A DNA stretch of 24,061 bases from a virus: positions 1-24,061 of the IMG/VR virus record IMGVR_UViG_3300040751_001192; one strand, 5' to 3'. Shown piece after piece: positions 8,501-24,061 of this stretch (its first letter is position 1; each line of letters starts with the position of its first letter). The position numbers and the translations under genes were made by a program. The notes under the pieces are model-generated. The model saw only the letters and a program-made list of their open reading frames with translations, searched no databases and was not told the DNA's origin.

Positions 8501-11500
8501 ATGCCAAATTGGAAAAAAGTAATTGTCTCGGGGAGTGATGCATCCCTAAATACTCTAAGTGTAGATAATAATACACACTTATCAGGTTCATTAAATGTAT
8601 TTAAATCGGGTTCAACCGTATTTACAATCGAAGGTTCGCAAGGAACATTATTTCAGATAACAGACCAACTATCAGGTTCACTATTCTCAGTAGCAGATAT
8701 ATCAGGTGTACCATCATTTGAAGTATTCTCAGATGATACTGTAAAATTAGGAACATTTGGTTCAGAAGCAGTAGTTGTAGAGGGTGATGTATTAAAATTA
8801 TCACAACTATCAAATCAGAGTTCAGAAGCAACTGCCGTAGTGATAAATGGTTCAAATGTAGTTGGGACTAGGGAATTAGGTTCAAACGCATTTAATAGTA
8901 CAACAATCCCAACAAACAACAATCAATTAACCAATGGAGCGGGTTACATTACTGATGGTAACACCAATTGGAATAACTCATATGGGTTTATTACTGGATT
9001 AGATTGGACAGAATTAGGTGGTTCACAAGATAGTATCAATTTAAGTGGATTCAACAATGATAGTGGATTTACAACCAATATTGGAGATATCACAGGTGTT
9101 ACCGCAGGTACAAACCTAACAGGTGGGGGAACATCAGGCACTGTTACTATAAATATGGCTACTGGTGGTGCTGGCGCAGGAACGTATGGTTCAACTGCAA
9201 ACGGAACAAAAATCGATACAATCACAATTGATGCATATGGTAGGGTAACCTCAGTAGCTACTGGAGCGACAGGTACTTCATCAACATCAGGTACTGTAAC
9301 CTCAGTTGCTACTGGAACTGGATTGGCGGGTGGTACGATTACATCAACAGGTACATTATCACTTTCTCACTTAGGATTAGAATCATTAACCGACCCTAAT
9401 GATGATAGAATCTTCTTTTGGGATGATAGTGCTGGGGCATCTGCATGGTTAGATATCGGAAATGGGTTATCAATTAGTGGAACTACCCTATCAAACACTA
9501 TTACAAATAACAATCAACTAACTAACGGAGCAAGTTACATTACTGGTGTTGATTGGACAGAATTAGGTGGTTCACAAGATAGTATTAATATTAGTGGATT
9601 CAACAATGATAGTGGATTTACATCTAATGTAGGTGATATTACAGGTGTAACCGCAGGAAGTGGTTTAACAGGTGGAGGAACTTCAGGCACTGTAACTGTA
9701 TCTCACGCAGATACATCAACCCAATCATCTGTAAATAATAGTGGTAGAACATATATCCAAGATATTACATTAGATACTTACGGACACATCACTGGTATTA
9801 CATCAGCAACTGAAACAGTAGTAAATACAGATACAAACACAGTAACTTCAATTAGAAGAGATAATACTGGAACTTATAGGACAGGAAACATCAACTTAGT
9901 TGGTGGAAGTAATGTTACAATTACAGAAACATCAGCTGGTGTATTTAGCATTGCATCAACTGATACCAATACCAACACCACATACTCAGCAGGTTCACTT
10001 TTAGATTTAAGTGGTACTACATTTAATGTTGATTTATCAGAATTGACTGATATGACAGAAACGTTTGTAAAAACATCCGATGAGTTTGTAGTATTAGATA
10101 GTGGTGTACAAAAAAGAAAGTTAGCCTCTGAGATATTTGGTGATAACGCATTTAATAGTACAACAATCCCAACAAACAACAATCAATTAACCAATGGTGC
10201 AGGATATACAACTAATGTAGGTGATATTACTGGGGTTACCGTTACAGCAGGTAATGGTTTAACAGGTGGTGGTAGTGCTACAAGTGGTAATTTTTCAAAA
10301 ACTTTAAATGTTGGTGCTGGTACTGGTGTAACTGTAAACGCTGATAGTATTGAGATAGGTCAAGCAGTAGGAACATCGGATGATGTAGAATTTAATAGTT
10401 TAACTCTTGCTGGCGATTTGACCGTAAATGGTACAACTACTACCCTTAGTACAACAAATACAAAAATCTCTGATAACTTAATCGAACTAAATAGTGGTGC
10501 TACATCAAATGCAAACGATAGTGGTATCATCATTGAAAGAGGTACAACTGGTAATAATGCATTATTCATTTGGGATGAATCTGGTGATAAATTTGCAGTA
10601 GGTACAACAACCGCCACTGCCGATTCTACGGGTAATATTTCATATACACTTACTGATTTAGTGGCAAGTACATTTATTGGTGATTTAGAAGGAGTTGCCA
10701 ATTCAGCATACAATTGGGAAGACGCAAGAACAATTACTTTAGGTGGAGATTTAAGTGGTAATGTTTCAATTGATGGTAGTTCAGATGTAACACTTACTGC
10801 GACTGTTTCTAACAACTCACATACACATACATTATCAAATATAAGTGATGTAACTGCAACTGCAACTGAAGTAAATTATGTAGATGGTGTAACTTCAAAT
10901 ATCCAAACTCAGTTAGATTCAAAAGCAGGTGGTGATGATTTTGATGCAGATGGAACATTCGCATCATTGAGAGCGCAGGGAACTACAAAGGGCGATGTTG
11001 GTTTAGGAAATGTTACCAACGAATCAAAAGCAACAATGTTCACATCAGCTGCTCTTACAGGCACTCCAACCGCACCAACTGCTGCAACATCTACTAATAC
11101 TACTCAAATAGCAACAACCGCATTCGTTAAAGCTCAAGGATATACCTCAAATACAGGTGATATTACTGGTGTAACCGCTGGAGTTGGTTTAAGTGGTGGC
11201 GGAAACTCAGGTGGTGTAACACTAACACTTGATATGAGTGAACTCACCGATATGACCGCAGCAATGGTTGGTACTGATGAGTTTATTGTATTAGATAGTG
11301 GTGCAGATAGAAGAAAGGCTGCAAGTGAAATTGGATTAAGTATTTTTAACAACGATAGTGGATTCATCACTGGTGTTGATTGGACAGAATTAGGTGGTTC
11401 ACAAGATAGTATCAATGTGAGTGGATTTAACAACGATGCGGGTTATATTACATCATATGTAAACACTAACCAATTGACAACTTTCCAAGTAGAAGATGGT

Positions 11501-14047
11501 GATGGTACAGAAGTAACAATTTCACATGGTAAAGAATGGAAATTTGTAGAAGCAGGTGGTATCAATATCAATTGGACAGATACTTCAAATGGTAGTGATA
11601 CAGACCCTTATGATTTATCATTCTCAATCAATACAGGTGTAACCGCAGGCGATGGTTTAACAGGTGGTGGTACGTTAAGTTCTACACGAACTCTTAATAT
11701 CGGACAGGGTACTGGTATATCTGTAACCGCAGATGCAGTTTCACTAGCAACCGCTGGTGCTGGTGCAGGAACGTATGGTTCAACTGCGAATGGTACTAAG
11801 ATTGATACAATCACAATTGATGCTTATGGTAGAGTAACCGCAGTAGCAACAGGTGCAACGGGTACTTCATCAACATCAGGTACTGTAACCTCAATTGCCA
11901 CTGGAACTGGATTGGCGGGTGGTACAATTACTTCGACTGGGACATTATCACTTTCTCACTTAGGATTAGAATCTTTAACTGACCCTAATGATGATAGAAT
12001 CGCATTTTGGGATGATTCAGCAGGTGCATTTGGGTGGTTAGATGCAGGTTCAAACATTACAATTAGTGGAACAACCATTTCAGCAACTAACACTAACACA
12101 ACCTATTCAGCAGGTTCACTTTTAGATTTAAGTGGTACTACATTTAATGTAGACCTTTCCGAACTAACCGATATGACGCAAGCTTGGGTAACATCAACTG
12201 ATGAATTTGTAGTATTAGATAGTGGTGTACAAAAGAGAAAACTTTCCTCTGAAATATTTGGTTCAAACGCATTTAATAGTACAACAATCCCAACAAACAA
12301 CAATCAATTAACCAATGGAGCAGGTTACATCACCGATGGTAACACCAATTGGAATAACTCTTATGGATTCATCACTGGTGTTGATTGGACAGAATTAGGT
12401 GGTTCACAAGATAGTATTAATATTAGTGGATTCAACAATGATAGTGGATTTACAACAAACACAGGTACTGTAACCTCAGTTGGTATTACAACTTCAGCCG
12501 GATTAGATGGTTCGGGTACTATTACATCCACAGGAACAGTAAACATTAGTTTAGACTTATCAGAATTAACTGATATGACCACCGCAATTGATACTGCAGT
12601 TGATGAAATAATTCTATTAGATAATGGTGCAGAGAGAAGAAAGAGATTTTCAGAAATCTTTGGTTCAAATGCATATAATAGTACAACAATTCCAACAAAT
12701 AACAACCAATTAACCAATGGTGCTGGATACACCACAAATGTAGGTGATATTACTGGAGTTACTGCCGGAACTGGATTAAGTGGTGGTGGTACATCGGGTG
12801 GTGTTACATTAAATGTAGATTTATCAGAATTAACTGATATGACCGCAGCAATGGTTGGTACTGATGAGTTTATTGTATTAGATAGTGGTGCAGATAGAAG
12901 AAAAGCCGCTAACGAAATTGGTTTAAGTATTTTTAATAATGATAGTGGATTCATCACTGGTGTTGATTGGATTGGAATCGGTGGAAATGCAACTGATATT
13001 AATTTAAGTCAATTCACAAATGATTTAACAGTTAGTGCATTTACAAATGATGCGGGATACACCACAAATGTAGGTGATATTACTGGAGTTACTGCTGGAA
13101 CTGGATTAAGTGGTGGTGGTACATCAGGTGGTGTAACACTTAACTTAGCAAACACCGCAGTATCCGCAGGTTCATATACAAACGCTGATATTACGGTAGA
13201 TGCACAAGGTAGAATCACTGCAGCATCTAATGGGTCATCAGGTGGGTCTGGAGATATCACTTCAGTTAGATTAACTTCAGATGGTGGTTATGCACAGGTT
13301 ACTTCTGGAGCTGCTAATTTCACTATTCAAGGTGCAGGTACTGTTTCAACATCAGCAAGTAGTACAACATTAACAATTACCGGCCCAACCAACGTAAGTG
13401 AATTAACTAATGATAATAATTACTATTCAGAAGGAGATGCTGGAGAATTCTCTGCACTTTTGGTGGGTGATACAGGTGTAACAAATCCAGGTGGTACGGC
13501 ATCATTCCCGGCCATCATGTTTGCCACCTCTACCCCATTAGGTGCCACTGGATTTTATAGCGCAAATAGTACATCAATAAACGCTACAATTGCTGGTGTT
13601 CAACGATTGACTATCAATAATAATGGTATGAAAATTAATGGTGGTGCATTGGGTGTAAATGTGAACGCATCATCAACTGATGGTAGAATCGATGCATCAA
13701 ATGATATTGTAGCATACTCATCATCAGATAGAAGATGGAAAGAAAATATTAAACCAATTGATAACGCATTAAATAAAATATTAAAAATTGGTGGATACGA
13801 ATTCGATTGGAAAGAACTTTCAGAAGAAGAAAGAAAAACTCAACATGGTAACGAAGGACATGATATTGGTGTTATTGCACAAGAAGTAGAAGAAGTTTTA
13901 CCAGAAGTAGTAACCACAAGAGAAAATGGATTCAAAGGTGTTAAATACGATAAAATGGTAGCATTATTGATTGAAGGTATGAAAGAACAACAATCTCAAA
14001 TTGATTCTTTAAAATCAGAAATCAATGAACTTAAAGGGAGAGTATAA
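8501..14047 (+). CDS. Giant tail fibre with C-terminal S74 self-cleaving chaperone
   Basis: An 1848-residue fibre. It opens MPNWKKVIVSGSDASLNTL, sharing the WKKVIVSGS start of the protein at 6612. The shaft is built from recurring modules: NSTTIPTNNNQLTNGAGY (four copies), DWTELGGSQDSIN (four, plus one diverged), GDITGVTAG-GLTGGGTSG (about seven) and DMTxxxxxxDEFxVLDSGxxxRK (five). There is one TPTAPTAATSTNTTQIATTAF segment near residues 855-875, typical of the Phage_fiber_2 repeat. The C-terminal 107 residues form a Peptidase_S74 intramolecular chaperone: SDRRWKENIKPI with the expected Ser-Lys pair at Ser1742 and Lys1747, then GVIAQEVEEVLPEVV, VKYDKMVALLIEGMKEQQ and a closing coiled coil. 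In this family the domain trimerises the fibre and then cuts itself off before the Ser. GGATTAGGAT precedes the ATG. The stop overlaps the next start by one base. Confidence 0.9.
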   Translation: MPNWKKVIVSGSDASLNTLSVDNNTHLSGSLNVFKSGSTVFTIEGSQGTLFQITDQLSGSLFSVADISGVPSFEVFSDDTVKLGTFGSEAVVVEGDVLKLSQLSNQSSEATAVVINGSNVVGTRELGSNAFNSTTIPTNNNQLTNGAGYITDGNTNWNNSYGFITGLDWTELGGSQDSINLSGFNNDSGFTTNIGDITGVTAGTNLTGGGTSGTVTINMATGGAGAGTYGSTANGTKIDTITIDAYGRVTSVATGATGTSSTSGTVTSVATGTGLAGGTITSTGTLSLSHLGLESLTDPNDDRIFFWDDSAGASAWLDIGNGLSISGTTLSNTITNNNQLTNGASYITGVDWTELGGSQDSINISGFNNDSGFTSNVGDITGVTAGSGLTGGGTSGTVTVSHADTSTQSSVNNSGRTYIQDITLDTYGHITGITSATETVVNTDTNTVTSIRRDNTGTYRTGNINLVGGSNVTITETSAGVFSIASTDTNTNTTYSAGSLLDLSGTTFNVDLSELTDMTETFVKTSDEFVVLDSGVQKRKLASEIFGDNAFNSTTIPTNNNQLTNGAGYTTNVGDITGVTVTAGNGLTGGGSATSGNFSKTLNVGAGTGVTVNADSIEIGQAVGTSDDVEFNSLTLAGDLTVNGTTTTLSTTNTKISDNLIELNSGATSNANDSGIIIERGTTGNNALFIWDESGDKFAVGTTTATADSTGNISYTLTDLVASTFIGDLEGVANSAYNWEDARTITLGGDLSGNVSIDGSSDVTLTATVSNNSHTHTLSNISDVTATATEVNYVDGVTSNIQTQLDSKAGGDDFDADGTFASLRAQGTTKGDVGLGNVTNESKATMFTSAALTGTPTAPTAATSTNTTQIATTAFVKAQGYTSNTGDITGVTAGVGLSGGGNSGGVTLTLDMSELTDMTAAMVGTDEFIVLDSGADRRKAASEIGLSIFNNDSGFITGVDWTELGGSQDSINVSGFNNDAGYITSYVNTNQLTTFQVEDGDGTEVTISHGKEWKFVEAGGININWTDTSNGSDTDPYDLSFSINTGVTAGDGLTGGGTLSSTRTLNIGQGTGISVTADAVSLATAGAGAGTYGSTANGTKIDTITIDAYGRVTAVATGATGTSSTSGTVTSIATGTGLAGGTITSTGTLSLSHLGLESLTDPNDDRIAFWDDSAGAFGWLDAGSNITISGTTISATNTNTTYSAGSLLDLSGTTFNVDLSELTDMTQAWVTSTDEFVVLDSGVQKRKLSSEIFGSNAFNSTTIPTNNNQLTNGAGYITDGNTNWNNSYGFITGVDWTELGGSQDSINISGFNNDSGFTTNTGTVTSVGITTSAGLDGSGTITSTGTVNISLDLSELTDMTTAIDTAVDEIILLDNGAERRKRFSEIFGSNAYNSTTIPTNNNQLTNGAGYTTNVGDITGVTAGTGLSGGGTSGGVTLNVDLSELTDMTAAMVGTDEFIVLDSGADRRKAANEIGLSIFNNDSGFITGVDWIGIGGNATDINLSQFTNDLTVSAFTNDAGYTTNVGDITGVTAGTGLSGGGTSGGVTLNLANTAVSAGSYTNADITVDAQGRITAASNGSSGGSGDITSVRLTSDGGYAQVTSGAANFTIQGAGTVSTSASSTTLTITGPTNVSELTNDNNYYSEGDAGEFSALLVGDTGVTNPGGTASFPAIMFATSTPLGATGFYSANSTSINATIAGVQRLTINNNGMKINGGALGVNVNASSTDGRIDASNDIVAYSSSDRRWKENIKPIDNALNKILKIGGYEFDWKELSEEERKTQHGNEGHDIGVIAQEVEEVLPEVVTTRENGFKGVKYDKMVALLIEGMKEQQSQIDSLKSEINELKGRV
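8879..9079 (+). repeat. Long repeat A, copy 1
   Basis: About 200 bp closely similar to 12260-12460. The first 62 bases are identical and the rest differs at scattered, mostly synonymous sites. It encodes the NQLTNGAGY-to-GFNNDSGFTTN stretch of the giant fibre. Confidence 0.85.
9182..9412 (+). repeat. Long repeat B, copy 1
   Basis: A 231-bp block matching 11771-12001 at equal length with no gaps. It encodes residues 228-304 (TYGSTANGTKIDTITIDAYG onward to DDRI). Differences are mainly at third codon positions. Confidence 0.85.
11771..12001 (+). repeat. Long repeat B, copy 2
   Basis: Second copy of the 231-bp block of 9182-9412, encoding residues 1091-1167 of the giant fibre. Here block B comes before block A, the reverse of the first pair. 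Confidence 0.85.
12260..12460 (+). repeat. Long repeat A, copy 2
   Basis: Second copy of the 200-bp block of 8879-9079, at a constant offset of 3381 bases. It opens with 62 identical bases. Confidence 0.85.
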
Positions 14048-21764: not shown

Positions 21765-22253
21765 ATGGCACAATTATTAGACCCAACTGAAGTAATGTTC
21801 ACATCATTCGAACCGAAGATGTCGAACCGCTTTATTATGTATGTAGAAGGAATTCCTGCATATCTAATCAAAGCAGCCAATAGACCTGAAATATCAAATG
21901 GTAAAGTAACTATCGACCATATCAACGTAAGAAGATATGTAAAAGGTAGAAGTGAGTGGAGTAGTTTAACAATTTCATTGTACGACCCAGTAGTACCATC
22001 TGCAGCACAAGCTACAATGGAGTGGGTACGTTTACACCACGAATCAGTAACTGGTAGAGACGGTTACTCTGATTTCTACAAAAAAGATATCACTTTTAAC
22101 AGTTTGGGTCCTGTTGGTGATAAAGTAGAAGAGTGGACACTTAAAGGAGCATTTATCGAAACTGCTAAATTCTCAGATATGGATTATACTGGTGAAGATT
22201 TAGCAACTGTAGATTTAACACTTGCTTACGATTACGCAATACTACAATACTAA
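21765..22253 (+). CDS. 19: Tail tube protein, gp19-like
   Basis: A 162-residue protein, almost the length of T4 gp19 (163). Typical segments are PKMSNRFIMYVEGIPAYLIK, AANRPEISNGKVTIDHINV, KGRSEWSSLTISLYDPVVPS, EWVRLHHESVTGRDGYSDFY and VEEWTLKGAFIETAKFSDMD, ending in TVDLTLAYDYAILQY. Hexameric rings of this protein form the inner tube inside the gp18 sheath. CGGAG lies upstream of the ATG. It has its own promoter-like motif and terminator, which fits the need for many copies of this protein. Confidence 0.95.
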   Translation: MAQLLDPTEVMFTSFEPKMSNRFIMYVEGIPAYLIKAANRPEISNGKVTIDHINVRRYVKGRSEWSSLTISLYDPVVPSAAQATMEWVRLHHESVTGRDGYSDFYKKDITFNSLGPVGDKVEEWTLKGAFIETAKFSDMDYTGEDLATVDLTLAYDYAILQY

Positions 22254-22271: not shown

Positions 22272-22303
22272 CAAATTGAAAATTCAGCAAATTGAAAATT
22301 CAG
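22272..22303 (+). repeat. Two 16-bp tandem copies before a terminator
   Basis: CAAATTGAAAATTCAG occurs twice without a gap (22272-22287 and 22288-22303), perfectly conserved and non-coding, directly before the terminator of the tube gene. Confidence 0.95.
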
Positions 22304-22335
22304 AACCCCAACATTTTTGTTGGGGTTTTTGTTTT
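22304..22335 (+). terminator. Intrinsic terminator after the tube gene
   Basis: AACCCCAACA (22304-22313) pairs perfectly with TGTTGGGGTT (22318-22327) around TTTT, followed by a T-rich tail. The left arm is identical to 8372-8381 of the terminator after the gene at 8188. Confidence 0.93.
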
Positions 22336-22404: not shown

Positions 22405-23283
22405 ATGAGCGAAGAATTGCAAGATGATTACAAATCAAACATCTCAAATCAGGAGATGGTGGAACTTGCCAAACAACAATTTGAACAGAAGCAAGTTTCA
22501 GATTACAAATTCCCAACTGAAATCGTAGAGTTACCATCTAAGGGGTTGATTTACCCAAAGGATAACTCACTTTCAAGTGGTAGAGTTGAAATGAAGTATA
22601 TGACTGCTAAAGAGGAAGATATCCTTACTACACAATCATATATTAAAGATGGTTCGGTGTTAGACCGATTATTCCAATCACTTATTATTTCAAATGGTGA
22701 AGGATTACCAGTAAAATATGTAGATATCACCGCAGGTGATAAAAACGCAATTATGATTGCAGCACGTATTTTGGGATATGGTAAGGATTATGAGGTGGAG
22801 ATTACAGACCCATTTACTAACACAAAACAAAAAGAAGTTATTGATTTAACTCAATTTGAAAATAAAGATTACGATGGTAGTAAACAAACAGAACCACATA
22901 AAAATGAGTTCGAATTCACACTACCTCGTTCAACTCGTAAGATTACGTTTCAAGCATTAACTGAAAGTAAAGAACGTAAGATTAAACATCAGTTAGAAGA
23001 TTTGAAAAAAGCAGGTCGTAAAATGAAAGATTTAACATCTAAAGAATTGACGACTCGTTTAAAAAATACAATTACATCAGTAGATGGGGAATACGATACT
23101 AAATATATTAGTAATTTCGTAGATAACGAATTGTTTGCAGTAGATTCTAAGTCTCTCAGAGCATACATTAATGAAGTTATACCGGATATTGATTTAACAT
23201 ACGAATTTATTTCTGAAGAGACTGGGGAAAGGAGAGAGATGCTACTGCCTATGGATGTCGGGTTTTTTTGGCCTAAGTCTTAA
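22405..23283 (+). CDS. 26: T4_baseplate-family (gp26-like) protein, probable tail assembly chaperone
   Basis: A 292-residue protein with AAGAGAAC before the ATG. After an acidic, helical leader it has FPTEIVELPSKGLIYP (residues 36-51), VEMKYMTAKEEDIL (61-74), LDRLFQSLII and GDKNAIMIAARILGYGKDYE, which I recognise from the gp26/T4_baseplate family of T4-like phages. The C-terminus ends MDVGFFWPKS. The position directly after the tube gene is where other long-tailed phages encode their tail assembly chaperone, usually with a frameshifted extension. Here the end of the gene overlaps a second ORF in the +1 frame at GGGTTTTTTTGG (23260-23271), which supports that reading. The alternative is a baseplate hub protein, as T4 gp26 has been described. 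Confidence 0.75.
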   Translation: MSEELQDDYKSNISNQEMVELAKQQFEQKQVSDYKFPTEIVELPSKGLIYPKDNSLSSGRVEMKYMTAKEEDILTTQSYIKDGSVLDRLFQSLIISNGEGLPVKYVDITAGDKNAIMIAARILGYGKDYEVEITDPFTNTKQKEVIDLTQFENKDYDGSKQTEPHKNEFEFTLPRSTRKITFQALTESKERKIKHQLEDLKKAGRKMKDLTSKELTTRLKNTITSVDGEYDTKYISNFVDNELFAVDSKSLRAYINEVIPDIDLTYEFISEETGERREMLLPMDVGFFWPKS

Positions 23284-23476
23284 TTATAGGAAGTTATTAC
23301 ACTCTCAAATATTCGACCTAATCTATCATGGAAATGGTGGGTTTACCTTTTCAGATGTTTACAATATGCCACTTTGGGCTCGAAAATTTTATATTACTAA
23401 GATTGTAGAATTTAAAGAAAATGAAAAACAGGCGTATGAGAAACAAGCGAAAAAAACAAAAGGTATAAGAAGATAA
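23198..23476 (+). CDS. Probable frameshift extension of the gp26-like protein
   Basis: This frame is open from 23198 (after TAA at 23195) to TAA at 23474-23476, overlapping the previous gene by 86 nt in the +1 frame. The only ATG in the overlap is at 23255, giving 73 residues, and the GGAGAGAG there is 17 nt away, too far to serve it well. A shift at TTTTTTT (23263-23269) would instead join FF to GLSLNYRKLLHSQ. A +1 slip would give a 356-residue fusion and a -2 slip one of 357. The extension has NGGFTFSDVYNMPLWARKFY followed by a Lys/Glu-rich helix, like the short helical C-terminal parts of tail assembly chaperones that contact the tape measure. Independent translation from 23255 remains possible. 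A terminator follows immediately. Confidence 0.7.
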   Translation, partial: HTNLFLKRLGKGERCYCLWMSGFFGLSLNYRKLLHSQIFDLIYHGNGGFTFSDVYNMPLWARKFYITKIVEFKENEKQAYEKQAKKTKGIRR

Positions 23477-23510
23477 TAAGAAACCCAACGTAATTGTTGG
23501 GTTTTCTTAT
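23476..23510 (+). terminator. Intrinsic terminator
   Basis: Arms 23476-23489 and 23496-23510 pair (core AAACCCAAC with GTTGGGTTT) with one bulged T and a six-base loop. It begins on the last base of the stop codon. The right arm ends on the first base of the next TATTTATA. Confidence 0.82.
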
Positions 23511-23540: not shown

Positions 23541-23774
23541 ATGAAGATTAAAGAATCACAACTCAGAGAACTTTTTAAGGAAGTTGGTCTTTCTGAAGAT
23601 ATGTTTGATATATTCAGAAGCAAACGTAAAAAATTAGATAGAAAAATCAAAGATTTGAAATCTGATTTAAAAGATATGGAAGATTCAGCACCTACTGATA
23701 AGGATAGGGAACGTCTTAGAAAGTTAAACTCAACACTTCAAACAGCACTTAAATCAGGTGGTCTGAAAATATAG
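23541..23774 (+). CDS. Small charged helical protein of unknown function
   Basis: A 77-residue protein with AGGGAA before the ATG. It is dominated by Lys, Asp and Glu in helical heptad-like arrangement (FRSKRKKLDRKIKDLKSDLK, then DKDRERLRKLNSTLQ), so a coiled coil is likely. I recognise no family. It lies between the tail assembly chaperone pair and another coiled-coil gene, which suggests a tail or baseplate assembly role, but this is only context. Confidence 0.7.
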   Translation: MKIKESQLRELFKEVGLSEDMFDIFRSKRKKLDRKIKDLKSDLKDMEDSAPTDKDRERLRKLNSTLQTALKSGGLKI

Positions 23775-23786
23775 TAATTTATACAA

Positions 23787-24061
23787 ATGGCTAAAAAAGA
23801 TATTCAAAATCGTAAAAAGGAGTTGCAGGAAGAAATCCAAGCAACTAAAGATTTGGCTGCAGCACAACTTGCGTTGATTAAGAATGCCCAAACAACAAAA
23901 GCATTATCTAATGAAGCCATAGGTTTAAAAGAGAAACTACTAAAAAAATTACAATCAGAAGAATCACTTACAGGTCAAATCAACAGTATTCAAGAAGCAA
24001 TTGATGGTATGTTGAAAGAACAAATCGAAAGAGGTGATGAGGTAAATCAACATTACATTGA
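23787..24061 (+). CDS. Coiled-coil protein, cut by the window edge; possible tape measure N-terminus
   Basis: ATG at 23787, 12 nt after the previous stop, open to the end of the window (91 full codons, MAKKDIQNRKKELQEEIQAT...). No clear ribosome-binding sequence. The visible part is entirely helical and rich in Lys, Glu, Gln, Leu and Ala (KLLKKLQSEESLTGQINSI, then EAIDGMLKEQIERGDE), a long coiled coil without charge clusters that would suggest DNA binding. In long-tailed phages the tape measure gene usually follows the chaperone frameshift pair, so this could be its start. A baseplate or hub protein is equally allowed. Gene presence is fairly sure, identity is not. Confidence 0.6.
   Translation, partial: MAKKDIQNRKKELQEEIQATKDLAAAQLALIKNAQTTKALSNEAIGLKEKLLKKLQSEESLTGQINSIQEAIDGMLKEQIERGDEVNQHYI

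Follow-up and report, generated by a model that had tools for sequence, protein, structure and literature searches.

The question raised by this locus is whether a single phage gene, related to gene 26 of phage T4, gives rise to two tail assembly proteins through a change of reading frame close to its end. T4 gp26 and gp51 are baseplate hub assembly chaperones. The window, i.e. the whole stretch of DNA that was analyzed, comprises 24,061 nt and corresponds to positions 1-24,061 of the IMG/VR record IMGVR_UViG_3300040751_001192. A first-pass annotation had proposed a programmed frameshift in a tail-assembly-chaperone-like gene of this window, and the comparative tests that we ran on its relatives support the proposal. 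The region contains the following features:

21765-22253, + strand: tail tube protein, gp19-like, upstream of the gene (phrog_4542 tail tube, 9.9e-23)
22302-22329, + strand: terminator-like hairpin 5' of the gene (12-pair stem and T tail)
22405-23283, + strand: gp26-like main protein (TAC-N), 292 aa (PF12322 T4_baseplate, E = 1.7e-6; phrog_150 baseplate hub, 1e-8)
22405-23476, + strand: whole recoded gene, with a product predicted from sequence (fusion of 356 aa if +1, TAC-NC; 357 aa if -2)
23198-23283, + strand: overlap of the two frames, 86 nt; the only in-frame ATG of the second ORF is at 23255
23263-23274, + strand: shift site TTT TTT TGG CCT; the run of seven T is 23263-23269, in GGG TTT TTT TGG
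23270-23476, + strand: +1-frame C-terminal extension GLSLNYRK..., 68 aa, three helices predicted
23480-23505, + strand: terminator-like hairpin directly 3' of the extension (11-pair stem and T tail)
23787-24059, + strand: start of a probable tape measure protein, truncated at the end of the window (at least 696 aa in the near-identical contig L003)

The overlap between the gp26-like ORF and the +1 frame, which is open from 23198 to 23476, has exactly the coordinates that had been reported for it. The main ORF terminates in ...LPMDVGFFWPKS, with MDVGFFWPKS as the last residues before the stop. Reading both TTT codons and skipping one T brings GGC CTA into frame and leads to ...VGFFGLSLNYRK... 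in the 356-residue fusion; a -2 slip would insert one extra Phe. The terminator-like hairpins on both sides delimit main ORF and extension as one flanked unit. The gene had also been likened to known chaperone pairs by its position after the tube gene and by its shape, a main protein with a short helical extension, and both observations hold: the tube gene is upstream and the probable tape measure gene downstream, and the 292-residue protein is followed by 68 residues that are predicted to be helical. A tape measure gene is likewise located downstream in contig L043, where the equivalent of the probable tape measure ORF matches phrog_167 (tape measure, 7e-12), and in Microcystis phage Mel-JY01, and it is so annotated in Flavobacterium phage immuto.

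Other parts of the window are of separate interest. A charged ORF of 77 aa (23541-23774) separates the extension from the tape measure gene and has a 97-aa ORF as counterpart in L043; no informative family match was obtained for the 77-aa ORF. A PhoH-like ATPase (455-1114; phrog_170, 1.4e-61) is encoded beside structural genes, and a repetitive structural protein of 1848 aa (8501-14047) contains recurring DWTELGGSQDSINLSGFNNDSG-type units and has a C-terminal end that presumably resembles a self-cleaving tail-spike chaperone.

The family is common, as a protein scan of one collection of viral contigs returned at least 598 relatives of the main protein. Eighty were retained, and 66 distinct relatives (46-100% identity) remained after deduplication; because these sequences are related, counts over them do not represent independent events. 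TTT TTT TGG CCN and the +1-frame extension are present at every locus among the 80 that covers the gene end. Loci with separated ORFs or unrelated frames were looked for among the distinct relatives, but all 66 keep TTT TTT TGG and the +1 arrangement, which favors the first-pass reading. At the two Phe positions of the slip site, TTT is used in 132 of 132 cases, compared to 498 of 664 Phe codons (75%) elsewhere in the same genes. In a codon alignment with 92 columns in which the amino acid is conserved and synonymous codons exist, synonymous change is absent only from the two that represent Phe at the slip site; at five other columns with conserved Phe, 16-37% of the sequences use TTC. When the set is thinned to 35 sequences with less than 80% identity, the probability of finding only TTT by chance is 4e-10. 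No further run of seven T occurs in the genes of the 66 relatives. The TGG codon is followed by CCT in 62 of 66 relatives, which is explained by double coding, since the last two bases of CCT start the Leu codon of the extension. In these comparisons, the conservation of the shift site is far from chance, and the +1 signal is common to about 130 distinct sequences from related uncultured phages.

The extension behaves as a coding sequence. Its median dN/dS is 0.09 with variation at third positions, i.e. it is under purifying selection, and the extension family has zero stops in its own frame, compared to averages of 2.8 and 6.8 stops in the remaining frames. In 14 of the 66 loci, the +1 frame contains a stop 2 nt ahead of the T run, and in the 66 loci the gp26 stop ends 18-27 nt past the start of this run. 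These two boundaries confine the frame change to TTT TTT TGG CCN together with no more than four codons that vary. A -1 signal of the X_XXY_YYZ type, as in lambda, P2 and the cyanophages, is not present in the window, where the conserved extension is in the +1 frame; the -1 frame opens just 7 nt before the end of the gp26-like gene and closes 12 codons past its stop.

Alternatively, the extension could be made without any change of frame, as an independent 73-aa protein that starts at ATG 23255 via translational coupling. The window does contain this in-frame ATG, a start codon of some kind is present within the overlap of many relatives, and in the Mel-JY01 record the second ORF is annotated as its own gene. 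Nonetheless, a separate start is unlikely, and its probability appears very small when the relatives are considered: 30 of the 66 loci are without ATG, GTG or TTG ahead of residue 11 and the conserved core of the extension, the frame is closed just before the run in the 14 loci mentioned above, and the invariance of TTT TTT in loci without a start codon would be left unexplained. Moreover, the ATG is as poorly served as had been suspected, with the AGGAG at 23230-23234 being about 20 nt away and the ATG itself missing from many relatives. That the two frames result from a sequencing error or from a decayed gene split by an indel has a virtually negligible probability. Base-call errors are common at homopolymers, but about 130 distinct sequences from metagenomes, as well as genomes of isolates, have the same site and frame, and selection maintains the extension.

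The direction of the slip is less evident from the window, because its sequence taken alone permits -2 as well as +1. The first-pass annotation had stated that tRNA-Phe can re-pair perfectly after either slip; this is correct for the window, but homologous sites with TTT CTT or TTT CTA allow only +1. In the group of Flavobacterium phage immuto (64 distinct sequences), the site reads TTT TTT TGG in 31, TTT CTT TGG in 28, TTT CTA TGG in 4 and TTT CTT TAC in 1, and all 64 retain the +1 frame for the extension. Isolate and assembled genomes add TTT TTT TGG (Mel-JY01), TTT CTA TTC (LR756508), TTT TTT CAC (SP-15), TTC TTT CGT (GXN1) and TTT TTT AGT (LIS04). Thus, UUU_U or UUU_C is found at the junction in 130 of 130 distinct sequences from two clades and in these five genomes, and a UUU followed by a pyrimidine would at all sites allow perfect re-pairing of tRNA-Phe after a +1 slip (UUU to UUU or UUC). 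According to PMC5009743, UUU_Y is a tetranucleotide at which +1 shifting happens particularly readily in bacteria.

If the ribosome slipped by -2 on the T run, as is stated for Mu (PMC5009743), the result would be ...GFFFGLSL and a product of 357 aa, and on TTT TTT TGG the tRNA-Phe indeed re-pairs perfectly at -2. TTT CTT TGG, TTT CTA TGG, TTT CTA TTC and TTC TTT CGT, however, re-pair at +1 and not at -2, although the frame that is entered is the same, which makes a -2 slip improbable. Slippage of the RNA polymerase on the seven T, by which the long form would be translated from an altered mRNA, is conceivable in so far as such a run is prone to it in principle and the loss of one U leads into the +1 frame; yet relatives with TTTCTTT or TTTCTAT keep the arrangement with T runs of at most 3, and this explanation is highly improbable. 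The +1 slip at UUU_Y is accordingly favored over both by the sequence comparison.

The occurrence, direction and rate of the shift and the roles of the two proteins are what we infer from this pattern: very probably, one gene encodes two tail assembly chaperones, TAC-N and TAC-NC, via a +1 slip at UUU_Y. Most ribosomes would stop at the gp26 stop and release the 292-aa short form. A minority would slip by +1 with the peptidyl-tRNA-Phe on UUU and a following pyrimidine (UUU_U within 23263-23269), and if this happened at the second UUU, the codon waiting in the A-site would be UGG (Trp). Translation would then continue with GGC at 23270 into the 68-residue helical domain and produce the 356-aa long form. 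If lambda G/GT is taken as the model, the role of the short form would be to coat the downstream-encoded tape measure protein, and that of the extension to recruit the upstream-encoded tube protein.

Just downstream of the slip site, 13 distant loci (L062:5949-5966; L054, L064-L069, L071, L076, L077, L079, L081) have a hairpin of 6 bp (GGGCCT-6 nt-AGGCCC), which is a candidate +1 stimulator. It starts with base 7 of the extension frame, counting GGC as bases 1-3; all positions pair in all 13 loci, both sides have changed in 4 of the 6 pairs, and the covariation score was reached by no shuffle. This hairpin is absent from the clade of the window and is thus dispensable for the basic signal. Downstream RNA structure was rejected as a general stimulator, as the clade of the window has no consistent fold signal and the hairpin is limited to the 13 loci. 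A Shine-Dalgarno-like stimulator upstream was likewise rejected, because a match is present in just 19 of the 66 relatives and is not conserved. The natural series UUU_UUU_UGG, UUU_CUU_UGG and UUU_CUA_UGG, with and without hairpin, is well suited for studying what drives +1 shifting in bacteria.

By sequence, the main protein belongs to PF12322 (T4_baseplate), the family of T4 gp26 and gp51. The window protein scores 28.3 bits against a curated cut-off of 24.5, and the family also matches T4 gp26 (8.8e-64), residues 1-201 of T4 gp51 (3.9e-52) and the protein of Synechococcus phage S-H38 (3.8e-71). A relationship between T4 gp26 and gp51 themselves is evident from hhalign (E 9e-5). Compared as single sequences, the fusion matches T4 gp26 and gp51 weakly, and the relation becomes visible via PF12322. 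The extension resembles the C-terminal part of T4 gp51 through indirect matches via phrog_634 and S-H38. phrog_634 (baseplate hub assembly catalyst) covers residues 147-246 of gp51 and matches the -1 extension of S-H38 at 6e-23; it matches the extension of the window weakly (0.0041) and 10 of 36 members of the extension family. A profile of the extension (alignment A3) finds the extensions of S-H38 (2.6e-5), LIS04 (1.8e-6), SP-15 (3.6e-4) and LR756508 (3e-18), and its direct profile comparison with T4, including gp51, was negative. The Pfam family DUF6760 is matched by 14 of the 36 members (best 3.4e-5); DUF6760 may also be represented in contractile injection systems, which may therefore have a chaperone pair of this kind. 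A search of NCBIfam returned nothing informative.

Main protein and extension were modeled apart with AF2, and the models reached a pLDDT of 86.5 and 89.7, respectively, the extension being predicted as three helices. In BFVD, the model of the main protein matches the SP-15 hub subunit and predicted gp26 or T4-like hub assembly proteins. Among solved structures, the HK97 tail assembly chaperone 2OB9 was the best match on a second look, with a weak Z of 4.8 over 83 of 104 residues and 3.0 for the next match, and a Foldseek search with the main-protein model gave E 2.3; a fold likeness between the modeled main protein and 2OB9 is therefore suggestive only.

Gene content differs in a complementary way between the split-gene genomes and T4. 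Six large contigs (115-162 kb), immuto and Mel-JY01 each encode the main protein once, with a single extension adjoining it, and SP-15, GXN1, LIS04, LR756508, LR756511 and S-H38 have one PF12322 copy each. In T4, profile searches found two PF12322 copies and no separate extension. This distribution fits the recoding of one gene and the possession of two genes as alternative ways to the same pair. What the comparison between genomes shows is the conservation of signal and frame, the coding character of the extension, the homology, the order of the genes and the presence of one copy. In a tree of 56 proteins, the +1 loci are on one side, with the CTT/CTA forms nested among them, and the cyanophages together with T4 are on the other (100/99). 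The -1 record LR756511 is on a long branch and groups with the +1 side; because of long branches, the placement of T4 and the root are unsure.

The arrangement is also present in cultured phages (Flavobacterium immuto, Microcystis Mel-JY01, Bacillus SP-15). Gene callers overlook the long product, and the extension is annotated as a separate hypothetical protein or left out. In the public records of SP-15, GXN1 and LIS04 (L085, L086, L088), the +1 extension is either unannotated or partly entered as a separate hypothetical protein, which could be corrected.

Frameshifting in chaperone genes was stated in a 2016 review to be conserved among long-tailed phages "except T4" (PMC5009743), and the very strictly conserved +1 signal described here is located in a chaperone gene of the T4 family. 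PMC10274946 and PMC12846349 credit Vladimirov et al. 2022 with the identification of T4 gp26 and gp51 as tail assembly chaperones; for T4, that study reportedly put forward a mechanism that does not involve frameshifting. The former paper cites it for T4-like chaperone genes without frameshifting and the latter for poly-T -1 signals in other T4-like phages. The link between the T4_baseplate family and tail assembly chaperones that the first-pass annotation had anticipated is, judging from these citing papers, not new. For the gp26/gp51 family, a strictly conserved +1 UUU_Y version that is backed by a large clade was not encountered in the literature searched, in which Vladimirov et al. 2022 was represented by the papers that cite it, and within this scope the +1 UUU_Y clade seems to represent a variant that is new.

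Single genes close to the tape measure gene that encode both a short and a long chaperone are also known for lambda (G/GT), P2, Mu and SPP1 (gp17.5/17.5*) (PMC5009743, PMC6316719). Their likeness to the window is one of arrangement; lambda, P2 and putatively SPP1 use -1 and Mu uses -2, and the window would use +1. SPP1 had been cited as a +1 precedent for the chaperone, which has to be corrected: its gp17.5* is a putative -1 product at UUUUUUC, and the +1 shift of SPP1 is in the tube protein gp17.1* (PMC6316719). A +1 shift in a tail chaperone gene is presumed to be used for G-T by the archaeal myovirus HSTV-2 (PMC5009743), which belongs to another host domain and is comparable to the window in the direction of the shift. 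In P2, the chaperone gene names are E/E'.

The closest comparison is with the T4-like phages themselves. T4 gp26, gp51 residues 1-201 and the window protein have PF12322 in common, and the extension resembles the phrog_634 region; however, T4 uses two genes on opposite strands and no frameshift, whereas the window has one gene with an out-of-frame extension. T4-like cyanophages such as S-H38 also have a single PF12322 copy with an out-of-frame extension at the same FF position, but there T_TTT_TTN precedes a -1-frame extension (50 of 50 distinct sequences), in contrast to +1 in the window. We slightly favor the view that the gp26/gp51 family evolved three routes to the same chaperone pair at one homologous position: -1 in cyanophages, +1 at UUU_Y in some Bacillota phages as well as in the large and predominantly uncultured clade of the window, and duplication plus fusion in T4. 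In that case, the mode would follow phage lineage rather than host, as Microcystis phage Mel-JY01 has the +1 and Synechococcus phage S-H38 the -1 form, and T4, the textbook exception, would be the lineage that abandoned recoding.
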